From assembly GCA_020831775.1 (NCBI GenBank), contig JAFIFZ010000077.1, positions 1 through 64,000 on the forward strand: a DNA stretch of 64,000 bases. The letters run 5' to 3'. This DNA is from Phycisphaerales bacterium. Its GTDB lineage: Bacteria > Planctomycetota > Phycisphaerae > Phycisphaerales > UBA1924. How positions within the stretch are numbered: position 1 is the stretch's first letter; each line of letters begins with the position of its first letter. A program made the position numbers and the translations under genes. Below the pieces are notes generated by a model. The model was given only the letters and a program-made list of their open reading frames with translations, was not told the origin of the DNA and made no database searches. This document shows, in pieces, positions 4,901 to 25,451 of this stretch.

Positions 4901-5770
4901 TTATTCGGCTTGGGGTTGCTGGGCCCGGTCTGCGGTCCGGTCCGCCTTGGCGGCTTTGCGTGCTTCGAAGCGGGCACGGTCTGGCGGGCCGGGGTCGCGG
5001 TCGTCGACGGCCCTGAGCATCTTGTGGATCGCGGCGCGCCGTCCCTCGCCGATCTCCCACCAGTAGTCGATGTCGAGCTTGCGTGTCGAGCGGAGTCGAG
5101 TGCCCCACTCGGCGGCGAGCTCCCGTTCTTCATCAAGCCGTGCCGCTATCGCCCCTTCGAGCCCGAGTTCCTCGACTTCTTCCTTGCCGATTCCGCTTTC
5201 AGTCAAACCCGCTCCGCGAGGACCGAAGTCCATAAAGGAGTAGAAAACAAAGTCATAGTCGCCTTCGCGATTCGGGTCTGGGTCGGCGCGGTAGCCGTCG
5301 CGGATCAGGCGGCGCGCCTTGTCGAACTCTTCGGCGACCGCCGGGTCGGTCGCGCTGTCGCGGGCCTCTTCGAGCGTGGCGAGCCAGGCATGGTCGCGCA
5401 AGTTGATGACGATCCAGAGCGCGTAGTCGCGGACTCTCTTGGATCTGTCGGTCAGCGCCTTTTTAAGCAGGCGTTCACGCAGGCCGTCGGGGTGCGCCCA
5501 ACGCGAGGCGCACAGTGCGGCGAGTCGTTCGGCGTATCTCGGCGAATCGGAGAGTTCCTCGATCTTCTGTCTCGCCTCGGGGAAGTCGAGGGCGAGGTAG
5601 GCGAGGAGGTCTTCGGCGACGCTGCGTTCGAGCTCCGAGGTCGAGGAGGCCAGGGCCGCGACGCGTTCAAGGTCGCCCGGCTTGCCCTCGCCGAGTGAGA
5701 TGTTCTTGGCGGCGATCGCGGCTTCGACCTCCGCGTCGGTGAGTGTGAGATTGCCCTTCGTCAGCGGCAT
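4901..5770 (-). CDS. Helical-repeat protein, downstream copy of a tandem pair
   Basis: 289 residues. All-helical and charged, with armadillo/HEAT-like spacing (DLERVAALASSTSELERSV, LLKKALTDRSKRVRDYALWIV), which suggests a protein-interaction scaffold. No signal peptide or membrane segment. It is closely related to the next gene upstream (5866-6720): the N-terminal ~165 residues and the C-terminal ~60 residues are nearly the same, while the middle (after GYRADPDP) has diverged and changed length. The GGGACAAGCC just before the ATG is also shared. It ends in a Gln/Ala tail. Function unknown. Confidence 0.7.
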   Translation of the reverse strand: MPLTKGNLTLTDAEVEAAIAAKNISLGEGKPGDLERVAALASSTSELERSVAEDLLAYLALDFPEARQKIEELSDSPRYAERLAALCASRWAHPDGLRERLLKKALTDRSKRVRDYALWIVINLRDHAWLATLEEARDSATDPAVAEEFDKARRLIRDGYRADPDPNREGDYDFVFYSFMDFGPRGAGLTESGIGKEEVEELGLEGAIAARLDEERELAAEWGTRLRSTRKLDIDYWWEIGEGRRAAIHKMLRAVDDRDPGPPDRARFEARKAAKADRTADRAQQPQAE

Positions 5771-5865: not shown

Positions 5866-6720
5866 TTACACCGACCGCTCCGAGCCGAGGTCGGTGGCAC
5901 GGGTTGCGGCTTTGCGGGCCTCGAAGCGGGCACGGTCTGGCGGGCCGGGGTCGCGGTCGTCGACGGCTCTGAGCATCTTGTGGATCGCGGCGCGGCGTCC
6001 CTCGCCGATCTCCCACCAGTAGTCGATGTCGAGCTTGCGCGTGGAGCGGAGTGAGGTACCCCACTCGGCTGCGAGTTCCCGTTTTTCTTCCAAGAGAGCT
6101 TTGACCGCTGCATCCAAGCCGGACTCTTCGACTTCGTCCTTGGAAAGCGTGCGGTAGCCGTAGCCTGTTCCGAGTGTGCCGTAGTCTATAAAGCTGTAGA
6201 ACACGACTTGGTATCCGCCATCCGGGTCTGGGTCGGCGCGGTAGCCGTCGCGGATGAGGCGGCGCGCCTTATCGAGCTCTTCGGCGATCGCCGGATCGGT
6301 CGCGCTGTCGCGGGCCTCTTCGAGCGTGGCGAGCCAGGCATGGTCGCGCAAGCCGATCACGATCCAGAGCGCGTAGTCGCGGACTCTCTTGGATCTGTCG
6401 GTCAGCGCCTTTTTGAGCAGGCGTTCGCGCAGGCCGTCTGGGTGCGCTCGGTGCGAGGCGGCGAGCGCGGTCATCCGTTCGGCGTATCTCGGCGAATCGG
6501 AAAGGTCCTCGATCTTCTGTCTCGCCTCGGGGAAGTCGAGGGCGAGGTAGGCGAGCAGGTCCTCGGCGACTCGGCGTTCGAGTTCCGAGGTCGAGGAGGC
6601 CAGGGCAACCACGCGTTCGAGGTCGCCCGGTTTGCCCTCGCCGAGGGAGATGTTCTTGGCGGCGATCGCGGCTTCGACCTCCGCGTCGGTGAGTGTGAGA
6701 TTGCCCTTGGTCAGCGGCAT
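5866..6720 (-). CDS. Helical-repeat protein, upstream copy of a tandem pair
   Basis: 284 residues, paralogue of 4901-5770, with the same start MPLTKGNLTLTDAEVEAA and the same Trp-rich core LDIDYWWEIGEGRRAAIH near the C-terminus. The middle segment reads GYQVVFYSFIDYGTLGTG in place of DYDFVFYSFMDFGPRGAG. The last residues (RATDLGSERSV) and the stop codon are encoded by a copy of a short dispersed repeat that also occurs near 23650. The arrangement points to a recent tandem duplication with later local change. Cytosolic; function unknown. Confidence 0.7.
   Translation of the reverse strand: MPLTKGNLTLTDAEVEAAIAAKNISLGEGKPGDLERVVALASSTSELERRVAEDLLAYLALDFPEARQKIEDLSDSPRYAERMTALAASHRAHPDGLRERLLKKALTDRSKRVRDYALWIVIGLRDHAWLATLEEARDSATDPAIAEELDKARRLIRDGYRADPDPDGGYQVVFYSFIDYGTLGTGYGYRTLSKDEVEESGLDAAVKALLEEKRELAAEWGTSLRSTRKLDIDYWWEIGEGRRAAIHKMLRAVDDRDPGPPDRARFEARKAATRATDLGSERSV
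5869..5900 (-). repeat. Dispersed repeat copy (GTGCCACCGACCTC family) inside a gene end
   Basis: On the minus strand the repeat begins GTGCCACCGACCTCGGCTCG and continues GAGCGGTCGGTG. It matches 23650-23680 on the plus strand with only a few changes. It forms a hairpin (ACCTCGGCTCGGAGCGGT region) and supplies the final codons of the 5866-6720 gene. Confidence 0.6.
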
Positions 6721-6872: not shown

Positions 6873-8456
<1,584 letters not shown>

Positions 8457-21668: not shown

Positions 21669-23645
21669 ATGGACGCGGCAGACCGCAAAACGCTGAAGAA
21701 GGACGACTCCCGGTGGGAGCGTGGGGACTGGGAGCACGACCCGAAGGAAGACCCGGATTGGAACGATCCGAGTCTGCTGCGCCGTCGGATCGGCACGCGC
21801 GAGGAACTCGAAGCCGTCGCCGACGCGATCGTGCGGGGGTACGAGATCAGGGACACCGATCCGGAAGGCAATGACCAAGCGATCGTCACGGAGCTCAGCA
21901 AAGACGATAGACAATCAGTTCGGGGGTCGCCGACGCACGCGATCGGGCGGCAAGTGATTGTCGAAGACCTTCGTGCTCTCATCGAGGCGGCGCAGCGCCA
22001 TCCGGATGTTCGCCTCGCCCGCTTCGAAGAGAAGGAAGATGAAGCGGGCATTCTCCGGGTCACCCGCCGATGGGTGACCAACCGGGACGGGACCGAACTC
22101 ACCGAGGAAACAGACTGCACAACGCTAGCGATGTTTGGCTGTGTGGTGGAGCGGGCCTGTCGTGAGCCGAATTCCGACAAACGATACTGGTTTTACGTCG
22201 GTGTTGCGTTGTCAGCGACCGTCCGCTTCAACGGTGCAGCGTTCTTTCTGGCCATCTGCTTCGGAGGTGCTGCGGAGTTCAAGGCTGCTCACTTCTGTGG
22301 CGATGCGGACTTCCGGACCACCCGCTTCGGTGGGCATGCGGACTTCCTAGACGCTCGGTTCTGCAGTGCCGCTGATTTTCGGATCACCCGCTTCTGCAGC
22401 GATGCAATCTTCCGGAGAACCCGATTTTGCGGGAACGCGGACTTTTTGGTCGCGTGCTTCTGCGGAAGAGCGGACTTTGCGTGTGCACGTTTCAGCGGTG
22501 CTGCGACTTTCTGGGACGCCCGATTTTGCGGTGTCGTGGAGTTCGGGTACGCGGAGTTCAATGCGGCTAGCACAATTAGCGGCGACCTGCGTAAAGCAGA
22601 CATTCGAGATGCATTAATCACGCATCCGCGTAAGTATCTGTGGCTTGGTCGCATTCCTTTGCTGCAGAGGTTGTGTGCAAGATTATCGAGATTGCGTGGT
22701 ATCGCGGCCAAAACCCTACATCTTAGTCCAAGGCAGTTCAGGCAGAGAAAGGTGACTGGTTGGGCAGGTGTCCGTTCAAAGGGTGAGCTGTCGATTCTGT
22801 CGCGGATTTCTGTTGTCGCGATTATACTGGTTCCGCCTATTGCAAGTGTGTGGCCAGCGATTCGCGCCGGCGTGATCGGTTACAACCGTGCGGTCGATAA
22901 CGCTGCAGAGCTCCTTTTGTCAAGCGCGGAATCGCTGGATGCCGCGGTATATCGTTTGTCAGAGTTGGACGATTTGGATGAGTCGGCGTTACTGCGTGCG
23001 GAGGCAGAGGTCAACGCTGTGATCGAGAACGTCATTGATTGGAAGCATCAGTTCAAATCGATGGCAATCGATCATCAATACCTTCCTGTGACCCTTGCGT
23101 TTGCATTCTTTGCAGCTTTTTGTGTGACACTCGCGCAATTTATGTACCAGACTTGGGTCCCGCAGATGATCCGCCGTTATGACGAGGAAGACTTTGTGAG
23201 GTCGAAACACCAGGAATTCACTGATGATGAACATGAAGTGGTCCGGCGGGACATGCTCAGCGAGGCATGCGAGGCACTGGAAGCCGCTGCTCGCCAAGAT
23301 CGCTTCAGCAACGCGAACTTGGTCCTCCGTCATGGTCAGTTGGTCTGGATTCCGCCGCGAAACCAGCTCGATTGGTTCGAGGACGGTGATCTGAAGAGGT
23401 TCATGGAAGCGGAGAAGTCAGATGGAGCGCCGTCGATTCCTGTCTGGTATGTCCGCGGCAAAGAGCGAGCCCGTATCGCGATCGAGGAAGGGGCGCGGGC
23501 GAGGTATTGGTGCGAGTCGCGCAAGCACATTTTTAGGGCGCGGATCTGTACATGGCTGTACCGGGTCGGCGTATGGCTTGTGCTGGGAGTGCTCGTGTTT
23601 CAGGCGTGGAACATCTTGAAAGCTGCGGGCGTGCCATGGTTCTAA
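21669..23645 (+). CDS. Pentapeptide-like repeat membrane protein on lower-GC DNA
   Basis: 658 residues. The N-terminal ~170 are charged and soluble. Residues about 175-300 hold roughly a dozen 11-12-residue repeats of the form ADFxxxRFCG, Phe-rich and similar to pentapeptide-repeat (right-handed beta helix) proteins but with frequent Cys at the turns. Two membrane helices follow (ISVVAIILVPPIASVWPAI at ~380 and LPVTLAFAFFAAFCVTLAQF at ~475), then a soluble region and a last helix (VGVWLVLGVLVFQAWNIL). The middle and 3' part is visibly AT-richer than its neighbours and contains two of the nine ACGT sites I found. Probably acquired; function unknown. Confidence 0.65.
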   Translation: MDAADRKTLKKDDSRWERGDWEHDPKEDPDWNDPSLLRRRIGTREELEAVADAIVRGYEIRDTDPEGNDQAIVTELSKDDRQSVRGSPTHAIGRQVIVEDLRALIEAAQRHPDVRLARFEEKEDEAGILRVTRRWVTNRDGTELTEETDCTTLAMFGCVVERACREPNSDKRYWFYVGVALSATVRFNGAAFFLAICFGGAAEFKAAHFCGDADFRTTRFGGHADFLDARFCSAADFRITRFCSDAIFRRTRFCGNADFLVACFCGRADFACARFSGAATFWDARFCGVVEFGYAEFNAASTISGDLRKADIRDALITHPRKYLWLGRIPLLQRLCARLSRLRGIAAKTLHLSPRQFRQRKVTGWAGVRSKGELSILSRISVVAIILVPPIASVWPAIRAGVIGYNRAVDNAAELLLSSAESLDAAVYRLSELDDLDESALLRAEAEVNAVIENVIDWKHQFKSMAIDHQYLPVTLAFAFFAAFCVTLAQFMYQTWVPQMIRRYDEEDFVRSKHQEFTDDEHEVVRRDMLSEACEALEAAARQDRFSNANLVLRHGQLVWIPPRNQLDWFEDGDLKRFMEAEKSDGAPSIPVWYVRGKERARIAIEEGARARYWCESRKHIFRARICTWLYRVGVWLVLGVLVFQAWNILKAAGVPWF

Positions 23646-23649
23646 TTTC

Positions 23650-23774
23650 GTGCCACCGACCTCTGCTCGGAGAGGTTGGTACCCGTTGATGCCCGCATCT
23701 CGGCATTGAGCTTGCAAAAATGCAGGAACTGCATCGATCCGGGAGCACCGACCTCCTTCGGAGGTCGGTGGCAC
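23650..23774. repeat. Inverted-repeat element with 14-bp perfect ends (GTGCCACCGACCTC family)
   Basis: GTGCCACCGACCTC at 23650-23663 is repeated as its exact complement at 23761-23774, enclosing about 97 bases. Each end can also fold by itself; the right end forms a 10-bp hairpin (ACCGACCTCC, TTC, GGAGGTCGGT at 23747-23769). A related copy lies at 5869-5900. It fills most of the gap between two convergent genes. It could be a small non-autonomous mobile element, a REP-like repeat or a double terminator. Confidence 0.6.
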
Positions 23775-23801
23775 GCGGGACCCCTCTGGGCGTGCGGCTT
23801 G

Positions 23802-25451
23802 TCACGCCGTCTCCATCACCTCGCTCACCTGATTCAACACTTCCGACGCGACCTGGTTCACGCCGTAGCCTCGCGGCAGTCTCACGAACGGCTTGCCGTG
23901 GGCGTCGCAGAGGGCTTTGACATTCTCGAAGCAGTGGCTCGACCAGCGGATCGCGAGCATCACCAGGTCGACATCGTCGCGGATCACCTGCGAGGCGAAG
24001 TTGTCGATCGGTTCGTGGGGGCGGGTGGCGATCCAGCGGAGTTCGGCGAGGTTCAGCCCGTCGCGGAGGGCGTCGCGGGAGCGCGGGCGGCACTGGCCCC
24101 CGATGATGACGGCGACCTTGCCCTTGAGGAGTGCCGCGGCTTTCTCGGCCTCGGGCGAGCGGGTCTCCCGCCTCTGCTGGGGGGGCTGGTCCGCCTCGGT
24201 GCGGGCGAGGTGCTCGTCTGCGAATCGCACGGCCTCGCCGACGCGCCCGGGCAGGTCGTCTGCGGGGGGCAGGTCGTCGAGCATGCCGATCAGCGCGTCG
24301 CGGATGCCGGGGTCGGAGGGTTTTAAACCGAGCTCGATGAGGCGTTCGACGGTCTCGACGAGGGTGTCGGTCTGGGTGCGCTTCTCGTCGGCGTCGAAGT
24401 CGTCCCAGCGTTTTGCGATGTAGCCGAGCTTGTTGAGGTGCTGGCGCCGGTGCTTGGCGAAGGAGACGACCTGGTCGAGCTCGTCGGCGATGGCGCCGAT
24501 GCGTTCCTGGCGGTCGGTCCAGAGGGCGGGGTCGGCGGGGTCGCTGAGGCGCATGTGGCGCGCGATGTAGATCTGGTCCTCGAAGACGCGGGTGCGGAGC
24601 CAGTTGAACGCGTCGTCCTGGTCGGCGTCGGGGAGGAAGCCGAGGCGGTCGAGCTGCACGCGCAGGGCCGAGCAGGACTCGGCGAGGAGCTCGTAGGCGC
24701 GCTCGAGGAAGCCTTCGGGGGCGCTGTCGTGCTCGATGATGTGCATCGTGAGGGCGAAGGCGTCGGCGACGCATTCGTAGTTGCCCGCGGCGTCGTCGAG
24801 GGCCCGGTCGTCGGGCAGGGAGGCGTAGGGGTCGAGCATCCAGGCGTAGCAGTTGGGCAGGTCGCGGGCCCGTTCGATCAGCGCCTTGTCGGTCGGGGCG
24901 ATGTGGTCGCGGAGGTCGGCGCCCTCGTCGATGCGTCGGCGGCGCTCGATCGCCCAGCGGGCAGCCTCGGCCTTGAGCCGGGCCCGGGCGACGACGGTCT
25001 GCGGCGGCGCTGCCTCGGGGCGGGCGGGCTTGGCCGGTTCTCGCTGGGGCTCGGGCGGACGCGGGGCCTCGCCGGTGTCGGGGACGGAGATCTCGGCGCT
25101 GGGGGCGTCGCCGATGTTGAGCGAGACGCGGGCCATTTTCGCCGGGGCCCGCTTGGGCTCGGGTTCGGCCTTCTGCGCGGGGGCCGGGCCGGCCACGGTC
25201 TCATTCGGGCTTTGGACGGAAGCCTCGTCGGTCAGCCAGCGGAGGACGCGGGCGAAGGCGCCGCGGAACTCCTCGTCGGCGGAGAGGGACTTGAGGCGGT
25301 CAAGGATCAGCGCGGCGTCGCGGAGCGGCGGCGGAGAAACGGGGGCGGGCGCGGGGCCCCTCCCGTTCGACGGCGCCCCGGCGTCCCGCTCGCCCCGTTC
25401 GCTCCCCTCGACCTGTACGGCTGTCTTGTGGTGTTGGGGCTCGGCAGGCAA
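23802..25451 (-). CDS. DUF2325-like C-terminal domain protein with long helical N-terminal part
   Basis: 549 residues, TTG start (GAGAGG 10 bases upstream). The first ~170 residues are Pro/Ala-rich linker with a helical piece (LILDRLKSLSADEEFRGAFAR). Residues about 175-430 are helical and acidic with Tyr/Trp patches (CYAWMLDPYASLPDD, HMIIEHD region). The C-terminal ~100 residues match DUF2325: AVIIGGQCRPRSRDALRDGL, DDVDLVMLAIRWSSHCFENV and a GKPFVRLPRGYG end. DUF2325 is a Rossmann-like domain of unknown role. The long fused N-terminal part is not one I recognise. Confidence 0.7.
   Translation of the reverse strand: MPAEPQHHKTAVQVEGSERGERDAGAPSNGRGPAPAPVSPPPLRDAALILDRLKSLSADEEFRGAFARVLRWLTDEASVQSPNETVAGPAPAQKAEPEPKRAPAKMARVSLNIGDAPSAEISVPDTGEAPRPPEPQREPAKPARPEAAPPQTVVARARLKAEAARWAIERRRRIDEGADLRDHIAPTDKALIERARDLPNCYAWMLDPYASLPDDRALDDAAGNYECVADAFALTMHIIEHDSAPEGFLERAYELLAESCSALRVQLDRLGFLPDADQDDAFNWLRTRVFEDQIYIARHMRLSDPADPALWTDRQERIGAIADELDQVVSFAKHRRQHLNKLGYIAKRWDDFDADEKRTQTDTLVETVERLIELGLKPSDPGIRDALIGMLDDLPPADDLPGRVGEAVRFADEHLARTEADQPPQQRRETRSPEAEKAAALLKGKVAVIIGGQCRPRSRDALRDGLNLAELRWIATRPHEPIDNFASQVIRDDVDLVMLAIRWSSHCFENVKALCDAHGKPFVRLPRGYGVNQVASEVLNQVSEVMETA

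Follow-up and report, generated by a model that had tools for sequence, protein, structure and literature searches.

GTGC-tagged REPIN-like elements in a genus of Phycisphaerales and their relationship to planctomycete RAYT genes

Introduction

The closest described relatives of the repeats reported here are REPs and REPINs, whose tetranucleotide guide is thought to help choose the cut site of the TnpA_REP/RAYT enzyme. In Pseudomonas fluorescens SBW25, REPINs consist of two inverted REPs and a spacer, fold into one joint hairpin and occur in many copies, with a RAYT beside some of them and single REPs as probable remnants (PMC3116915). Two REP superfamilies, tagged GTAG and CGTC, have tagged stem-loops, HH heterodimers, positions at convergent and co-directional gene ends, and read-through at ORF ends and inside genes (PMC3733652); the same source reports GTAG families in the PVC superphylum and counts R. 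baltica among the REP-rich species. For the TnpA_REP subclasses with canonical REPs the published guide is GT[AG]G, classes 2.6 and 3 being described as atypical and class 3 having the foot CnGA, and a 'double foot' REP form could arise by central deletion (PMC6006769). E. coli TnpA_REP is reported to tolerate no change of GTAG, and in other REPtrons experiments are read as the guide choosing the cut by complementarity (PMC8266576). E. coli genomes without a RAYT are reported to hold fewer REPINs (PMC8049555).

Here we describe a hairpin family found through a stretch of 64,000 nt from a Phycisphaerales bacterium (GCA_020831775.1, contig JAFIFZ010000077.1, positions 1 to 64,000), called the window below. 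It resembles the SBW25 REPINs in the features just listed, the RAYT standing beside copies in related genomes, and differs from them in its GTGC tag, its planctomycete host and a host genus in which no RAYT was found. It likewise shares the listed features of the GTAG- and CGTC-tagged superfamilies. Membership of either was nevertheless rejected: GTGC is neither GTAG, nor one of the variants listed with it (GYAG, GYRG, GTRG, GTMG, GTGG), nor CGTC, and the stem opens with C-G and A-T pairs where that of the CGTC superfamily opens with A-T. The string 'GTGC' is absent from the main text of PMC3733652. Among open papers, taken without the supplementary tables in which odd tags may be listed, none was found that joins a GTGC tag with RAYTs or REPs, and the open literature on REPINs in Planctomycetota yielded nothing relevant beyond the papers cited here.

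The element at 23650-23774

A sequence-only reading of the window had described a 125-bp element bounded by a perfect 14-bp inverted repeat, and this is accurate: GTGCCACCGACCTC lies at 23650-23663 (+) and 23761-23774 (-), a span of exactly 125 bp, with a third exact copy in the window at 5887-5900 (-). The element and its neighbours are as follows.

21669-23645, + strand: ORF ending 4 bp before the element; no Pfam family; missed by the codon-usage gene caller
23650-23774, no strand assigned: REPIN-like element, two GTGC-tagged hairpins head to head with the tags outermost; same place in sister genome G001
23650-23683, + strand: left hairpin unit, long loop; two stem changes in the window's genome (GAGAGGTTGGTACC)
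23745-23774, - strand: right hairpin unit, short loop; GTGC and a perfect 11-bp stem
23802-25451, - strand: convergent neighbouring gene, its stop 27 bp beyond the element; no Pfam family

The 125-bp element folds better than 200/200 shuffles, both as RNA (z -5.9) and as DNA (z -5.4), and is 91/97 identical inside the 14-mers to its counterpart in G001, where the left arm reads GGGGCACCGACCTC on the other strand and its stem is unmutated. The window by itself is weak evidence for GTGCCACCGACCTC, since four matches at up to two mismatches, against 1.4 expected, were also reached in 3/100 shuffles. An Rfam search of the window returned two tRNAs only; a tRNA-SeC called by ARAGORN at 23566-23661, which overlaps the ORF end and the left arm of the element and is without Rfam support, is probably false. 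The upstream ORF encodes 658 aa in which pentapeptide-like runs (ADFxxxRF) can be seen by eye, and has no Pfam match.

A dispersed family of tagged hairpins

The inverted repeat at 23650-23774 is one copy of a dispersed hairpin family. In the window's genome (G000), searched as a 3.55 Mb draft of 84 contigs, GTGCCACCGACCTC has 51 exact copies, where base composition predicts about 0.095, and seven more with one mismatch; the 58 are split evenly, 29 to each strand. A reversed-pattern control gave none. The unit, about 30-33 nt long, is a hairpin of the form 5'-GTGC + CACCGACCTC-loop-GAGGTCGGTG + C; the presence of GTGC in all 51 exact copies follows from the search design, which demanded the exact 14-mer. 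A full unit, with GTGC, a 10-bp stem and a loop of 5 to 9 nt, is begun by 40 of these 51, the loop measuring 5 nt in 20 and 8 nt in 17, while the remaining 11, including the window's left unit and a unit at 5869-5900, are mutated or lack the second arm. The base preceding GTGC is C in 47/51 copies and T in 4/51.

The 51 copies form 34 elements, 17 of them head-to-head pairs with the tags outside and 17 singles. The pairs are mostly 94-157 bp long; two of 496 and 523 bp owe their extra length to an inserted repeat of another family, and a third, C31:14146, is a single 33-bp hairpin, tagged at both feet, in which the two arms have become one. This last form is like the double-foot REP of PMC6006769 and explicable by deletion between the dimer arms, its tag differing in being GTGC/GCAC. 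In 16 pairs the 14-mers are separated by no more than 480 bp; of these, nine join a long to a short loop, three have two short loops, one has two long loops and three are unclassed. The structural traits of REPs and REPINs are present: a short stem-loop whose 5' foot bears a conserved, unpaired tag, two inverted units with tags outermost, a short spacer and a joint hairpin, and many, mainly extragenic, copies. The simple-transposon picture of a 125-bp element with 14-bp ends gives way to a head-to-head pair of tagged hairpins, and the copy at 5869-5900 is a lone unit.

Placement relative to genes and read-through into proteins

Genes were placed with our own codon-usage gene caller, an unvalidated tool by which 23 of the 34 elements lie between two called genes, three overlap a gene (one by 7 bp) and eight, having no called neighbour on at least one side, are unscored. 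Gene orientation around the 23 flanked on both sides is convergent in 14, co-directional in eight and divergent in one, and the convergent share exceeds the 26% expected from the window's gap lengths (p 5e-4).

A few copies are read through. The first lies in one of two neighbouring paralogous genes of the window.

4901-5770, - strand: paralogue that lacks the unit and ends in another tail; no Pfam family
5866-6720, - strand: gene that takes its last codons (RATDLGSERSV) from the unit; no Pfam family
5869-5900, - strand: single degenerate hairpin unit inside the 3' end of the 5866-6720 gene

The protein of 5866-6720 ends in ...ARFEARKAA-TRATDLGSERSV-stop and that of 4901-5770 in ...ARFEARKAA-KADRTADRAQQPQAE-stop; because the tails differ after the shared ARFEARKAA, the unit supplies the last residues of the former. 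The repeat had been credited with both the last codons and the stop of this gene: the codons are indeed its own, and the stop codon (5866-5868) lies just outside it. When this site was compared with the sister genomes, the contigs of G002 break there and G001 matched solely the unit itself. In G014, from another genus, the ends of paralogous ORFs contain three copies, in frames that are not all alike.

The second case is internal. A pair at C28:40241 lies wholly within a gene of the FtsW/RodA/SpoVE family (Pfam E 3e-70) and is in frame in all three genomes compared from the genus (G000, G001, G002), where it encodes about 33 residues (PCHRPLPEVGAVGCSPR...SRGRWHG) directly ahead of the part alignable to FtsW and RodA structures. 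In an alignment that took 20 of 24 matches (L326 and L333-L335 were dropped by a motif and length filter), this segment is absent from the 17 other FtsW-family proteins of the family and order; the loop at the insertion site varies in length, and G008 carries an unrelated insertion there. A REPIN can therefore enter a conserved cell-division protein and be shared as part of it. The suggestion that the repeat can change protein ends is supported by the C-terminus of 5866-6720 and the ORF ends in G014, to which the FtsW-family protein adds an internal stretch.

Distribution and comparison between sister species

The full unit was found in four of 61 relatives, with 40 hits in G000, 22 in G001, 18 in G002 and three in G014. 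A scan of species genomes located it in 52 stretches, every one of which carries the label Phycisphaerales, Phycisphaerae, Phycisphaeraceae or Planctomycetota, and the core pattern, sought in 13 further genomes, has 1 to 7 copies in 12 and none in G009. The window's genus (G000, G001, G002) has the most copies among the genomes counted. The genus, in which no RAYT was found, is in this unlike E. coli (PMC8049555), as far as a comparison across species goes.

Around the elements, G001 and G002 are mostly 90-97% identical to G000. The pairs C12:20219 (in G001), C28:40241 (in both), C52:21246 and C74:30055 (both in G002) are shared and co-oriented with G000, as are C67:34780 and the window element in G001. 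In G002, C67:34780 is inverted in place, its inside matching G000 at 66/69 positions when inverted versus 48/82 in its present orientation, and 13 other G000 pairs offer no better match (best 63/71); in-place inversion is seen in one of eight orthologous comparisons. Arms or spacers have been lost or replaced at C51:35332, C47:4840 and C48:6679, and another repeat cluster occupies the place of C48:9686 in G001. C31 in G001 was considered as a clean empty site and ruled out, the junction being rearranged.

The 14-mer is not confined to the window's few sites at loci conserved between species, given its 51 copies and an element of G001 (L119:80-176) that is absent from the matching G000 gap; a flanking repeat there has one copy in G000 versus two in G001. 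Many comparable sites, the window's own included, are common to the sister species, which suggests little recent movement. The proposal of a mobile or expanding repeat hence stands for a dispersed family that has spread, and fares poorly for recent mobility.

RAYT genes and the GTGC foot

The curated RAYT model NF047646 matched in 43/61 relatives, above its cut-off in 32, and in none of the three drafts of the window's genus; a specific RAYT profile reached no better than E 0.145 in G000 and matched nothing in G001 and G002. RAYTs are missing from other relatives too, so that this absence is not special to the genus. Elsewhere the unit adjoins a RAYT. SJ401 has an intact 210-aa RAYT ORF (L246, also within L120 at 7156-7788, - strand), flanked on either side by arrays that contain exact units. 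The RAYT of TGS_PLA3 (L248), likewise intact, is flanked by one exact unit and, on its other side, by a degenerate one tagged GTAC. The PNC22 gene (L240) is broken into pieces and has an exact unit at either flank, and fragments of a RAYT in SJ83 are no more than about 100 bp away from two units. A putative cognate RAYT flanked by the unit is accordingly seen in SJ401, PNC22 (broken gene) and, in part, TGS_PLA3, and in none of the three drafts of the window's genus. The hairpins adjoining most RAYTs have other stem sequences than the unit, which was seen at 0/30 of the first Y1 loci; stem-like motifs near Y1 genes in L191 and L178 looked like chance matches in coding DNA.

The tag is shared more widely than the stem. 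At 30 RAYT loci defined with NF047646, GTGC is the commonest hairpin foot (54/575, the next having 13), and in shuffles it falls outside the top eight. When the top repeated hairpin was called automatically, it was GTGC-tagged at 20/34 loci whose RAYT has a GGG motif versus 0/15 other loci, counts that leave out the loci without a repeated hairpin (9/43 GGG-motif, 13/28 other). Re-registering stems that extend over the tag raised the former figure to 23/34, foot pairs 1-6 all being kept through many changes, and lowered the GGG loci with no tag call or another tag from 14/34 to 11/34; four of these 23 had suggested the idea and built profile A1, having been chosen for GTGC hairpins, and relatives are not independent. 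At RAYT fragments (n=15), the top hairpin was GTGC-tagged in 1/4. Among 30 loci drawn from the whole phylum, a few of which also belong to the earlier sets, the top tag is GTGC in eight, six have no repeated hairpin and several others have GTGG feet. Beside these counts, it was observed that in PNC22 (L189, L232) the hairpins next to the several RAYT genes differ in stem from gene to gene and have the same GTGC foot, and that at L234 and L238 (G014) and L235 and L239 (G009), where GTGC-tagged hairpins occur as well, a short remnant of a RAYT C-terminus, about 25 residues long, is present, as if REPtrons decayed to a tail between REPs.

In the RAYT tree, one branch (90/90; 93% of bootstrap trees) separates all 20 GTGC rows from eight non-GGG rows; 20 further rows do not enter this count. 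Seven RAYTs that adjoin CA[CT]CGA stems cluster (95/94), L248 with L240 (100/98), and L158 and L249, also with CACCGA stems, fall outside that cluster. The planctomycete RAYTs are like E. coli TnpA_REP (PDB 4ER8; PMC6006769) in their HUH and Y motifs and Y...NP signature, and their profile matches 4ER8 at E 1.2e-10. They are unlike it in the region WQPRFWEHAIR, which includes residues reported to contact GTAG (PMC6006769): it aligns to a GGG-type segment one residue longer, WQxGGG[FY]DRN[IV], in which E100 becomes D and H101 becomes R.

If the guide chooses the cut by complementarity as in other REPtrons, a cut at GC or GA would be expected for GTGC. A fixed GC or GA was sought in the 12 bases outside the units, where only C at -1 (47/51) stands out, and inside them, where none was seen. 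The GTGC group has intact enzymes with REPs of their own, which makes the guide code testable by swaps of loop and guide between enzymes.

Origin of the family and alternative explanations

We consider it probable that the family is a GTGC-guide variant of REPs and REPINs, with a cognate RAYT from the GGG[FYH]DR-type planctomycete group, and that its copies in the window's genus are most likely relics. The data above establish the family, its architecture and placement, its association with RAYTs in other species and the inversion; movement by a RAYT, a guide role of GTGC and loss of the enzyme from the genus are inferences. By analogy with characterised REP/RAYT pairs, the RAYT, an HUH Y1 nuclease, would recognise the single-stranded tagged hairpin, cut beside it and move the dimer to new single-stranded sites. 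The GGG[FYH]DR-type motif, standing where E. coli TnpA_REP has its GTAG-contacting residues, may allow the enzyme to read GTGC and not GTAG or GTGG. Copies now lie mainly behind gene ends, above all in convergent gaps, with a few at or inside open frames and read through. As no RAYT was found in the window's genus, these copies are probably being shaped by host processes, namely arm loss, fusion of two arms into a double-footed hairpin and inversion in place. The genus offers a setting in which to ask whether such populations persist without a transposase. For the natural system as a whole we hold the arguments to be evenly balanced: planctomycete GGG[FYH]DR-type RAYTs would read GTGC where characterised RAYTs read GT[AG]G, loop and guide having changed together, and in one genus the REPINs would have outlived the enzyme, forming the largest population found, flipped and trimmed by the host, with one copy in frame in an FtsW-family protein.

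The family could still be active in the window's genus, its RAYT existing and having been missed in drafts that REP repeats break up, a possibility that we hold to be real and clearly the less probable one. For at least six of the 58 exact or one-mismatch copies a contig end is indeed no more than 300 bp away (C25, C46, C67, C70, C74, C82), the three drafts are 95, 89 and 79% complete, and G001 has one element that G000 lacks; against this, three out of three genomes lack a detectable RAYT and many compared sites are shared between the sisters.

It is unlikely that the hairpins are kept as RNA 3'-end signals, terminators or decay barriers, rather than as mainly mobile DNA. Their strength, their G-C-rich conserved stems and their mostly convergent positions behind gene ends would suit such a role, but there is no U-tract (TTTT occurs within 12 nt of 1/40 units), no intrinsic terminator matched at the window element (23400-23900), and the copies inside frames and the dispersal with RAYTs fit mobility. 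The two roles are not mutually exclusive.

Mobilisation in trans by the IS200/IS605 gene at C83:71243-71587 is very improbable. This gene has the sole PF01797 match in the window's genome, and hairpins with tetranucleotide guides serve IS200/IS605 transposases as well (PMC6006769); yet it is not a RAYT, scoring 82 bits against an IS200/IS605 cut-off of 55 and failing the RAYT cut-off of 80 with 24, no unit lies within about 1.5 kb of it, where the repeats are different ones, and PF01797 finds no match in the sisters, which have 22 and 18 units. A MITE of a classical (DDE) transposon with 14-bp terminal inverted repeats would account for short inverted ends in many copies and is hardly credible, since target duplications were found at 0/16 pairs for k 3-9 (1/16 for k 2, null 0.67), each end is by itself a complete tagged hairpin, single units are known and a RAYT adjoins the unit in other species.

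Other repeats near the elements

Besides the GTGC family, which in our reading is a variant of REPs and REPINs, further repeats were noticed around its copies. A second family (GTAG-CCACGGGTGGAGC..., with CCGCCCTGAAGGGCGG-type hairpins) surrounds the C83 IS200/IS605 gene (L031) and is also nested inside two GTGC pairs (L015, L029). A third repeat, about CTGTGGCACTGGCGGCTCGCCCGCCAGTG, lies near several elements (L036, L038, L102, L119) and is doubled round the element seen only in G001. A fourth, hairpin-like repeat, GACGCCGACCTCTGAGC...AGAGTCGGGTC, occurs with variants in L035, L037, L042, L049 and L050, and has CCGACCTC in common with the unit.
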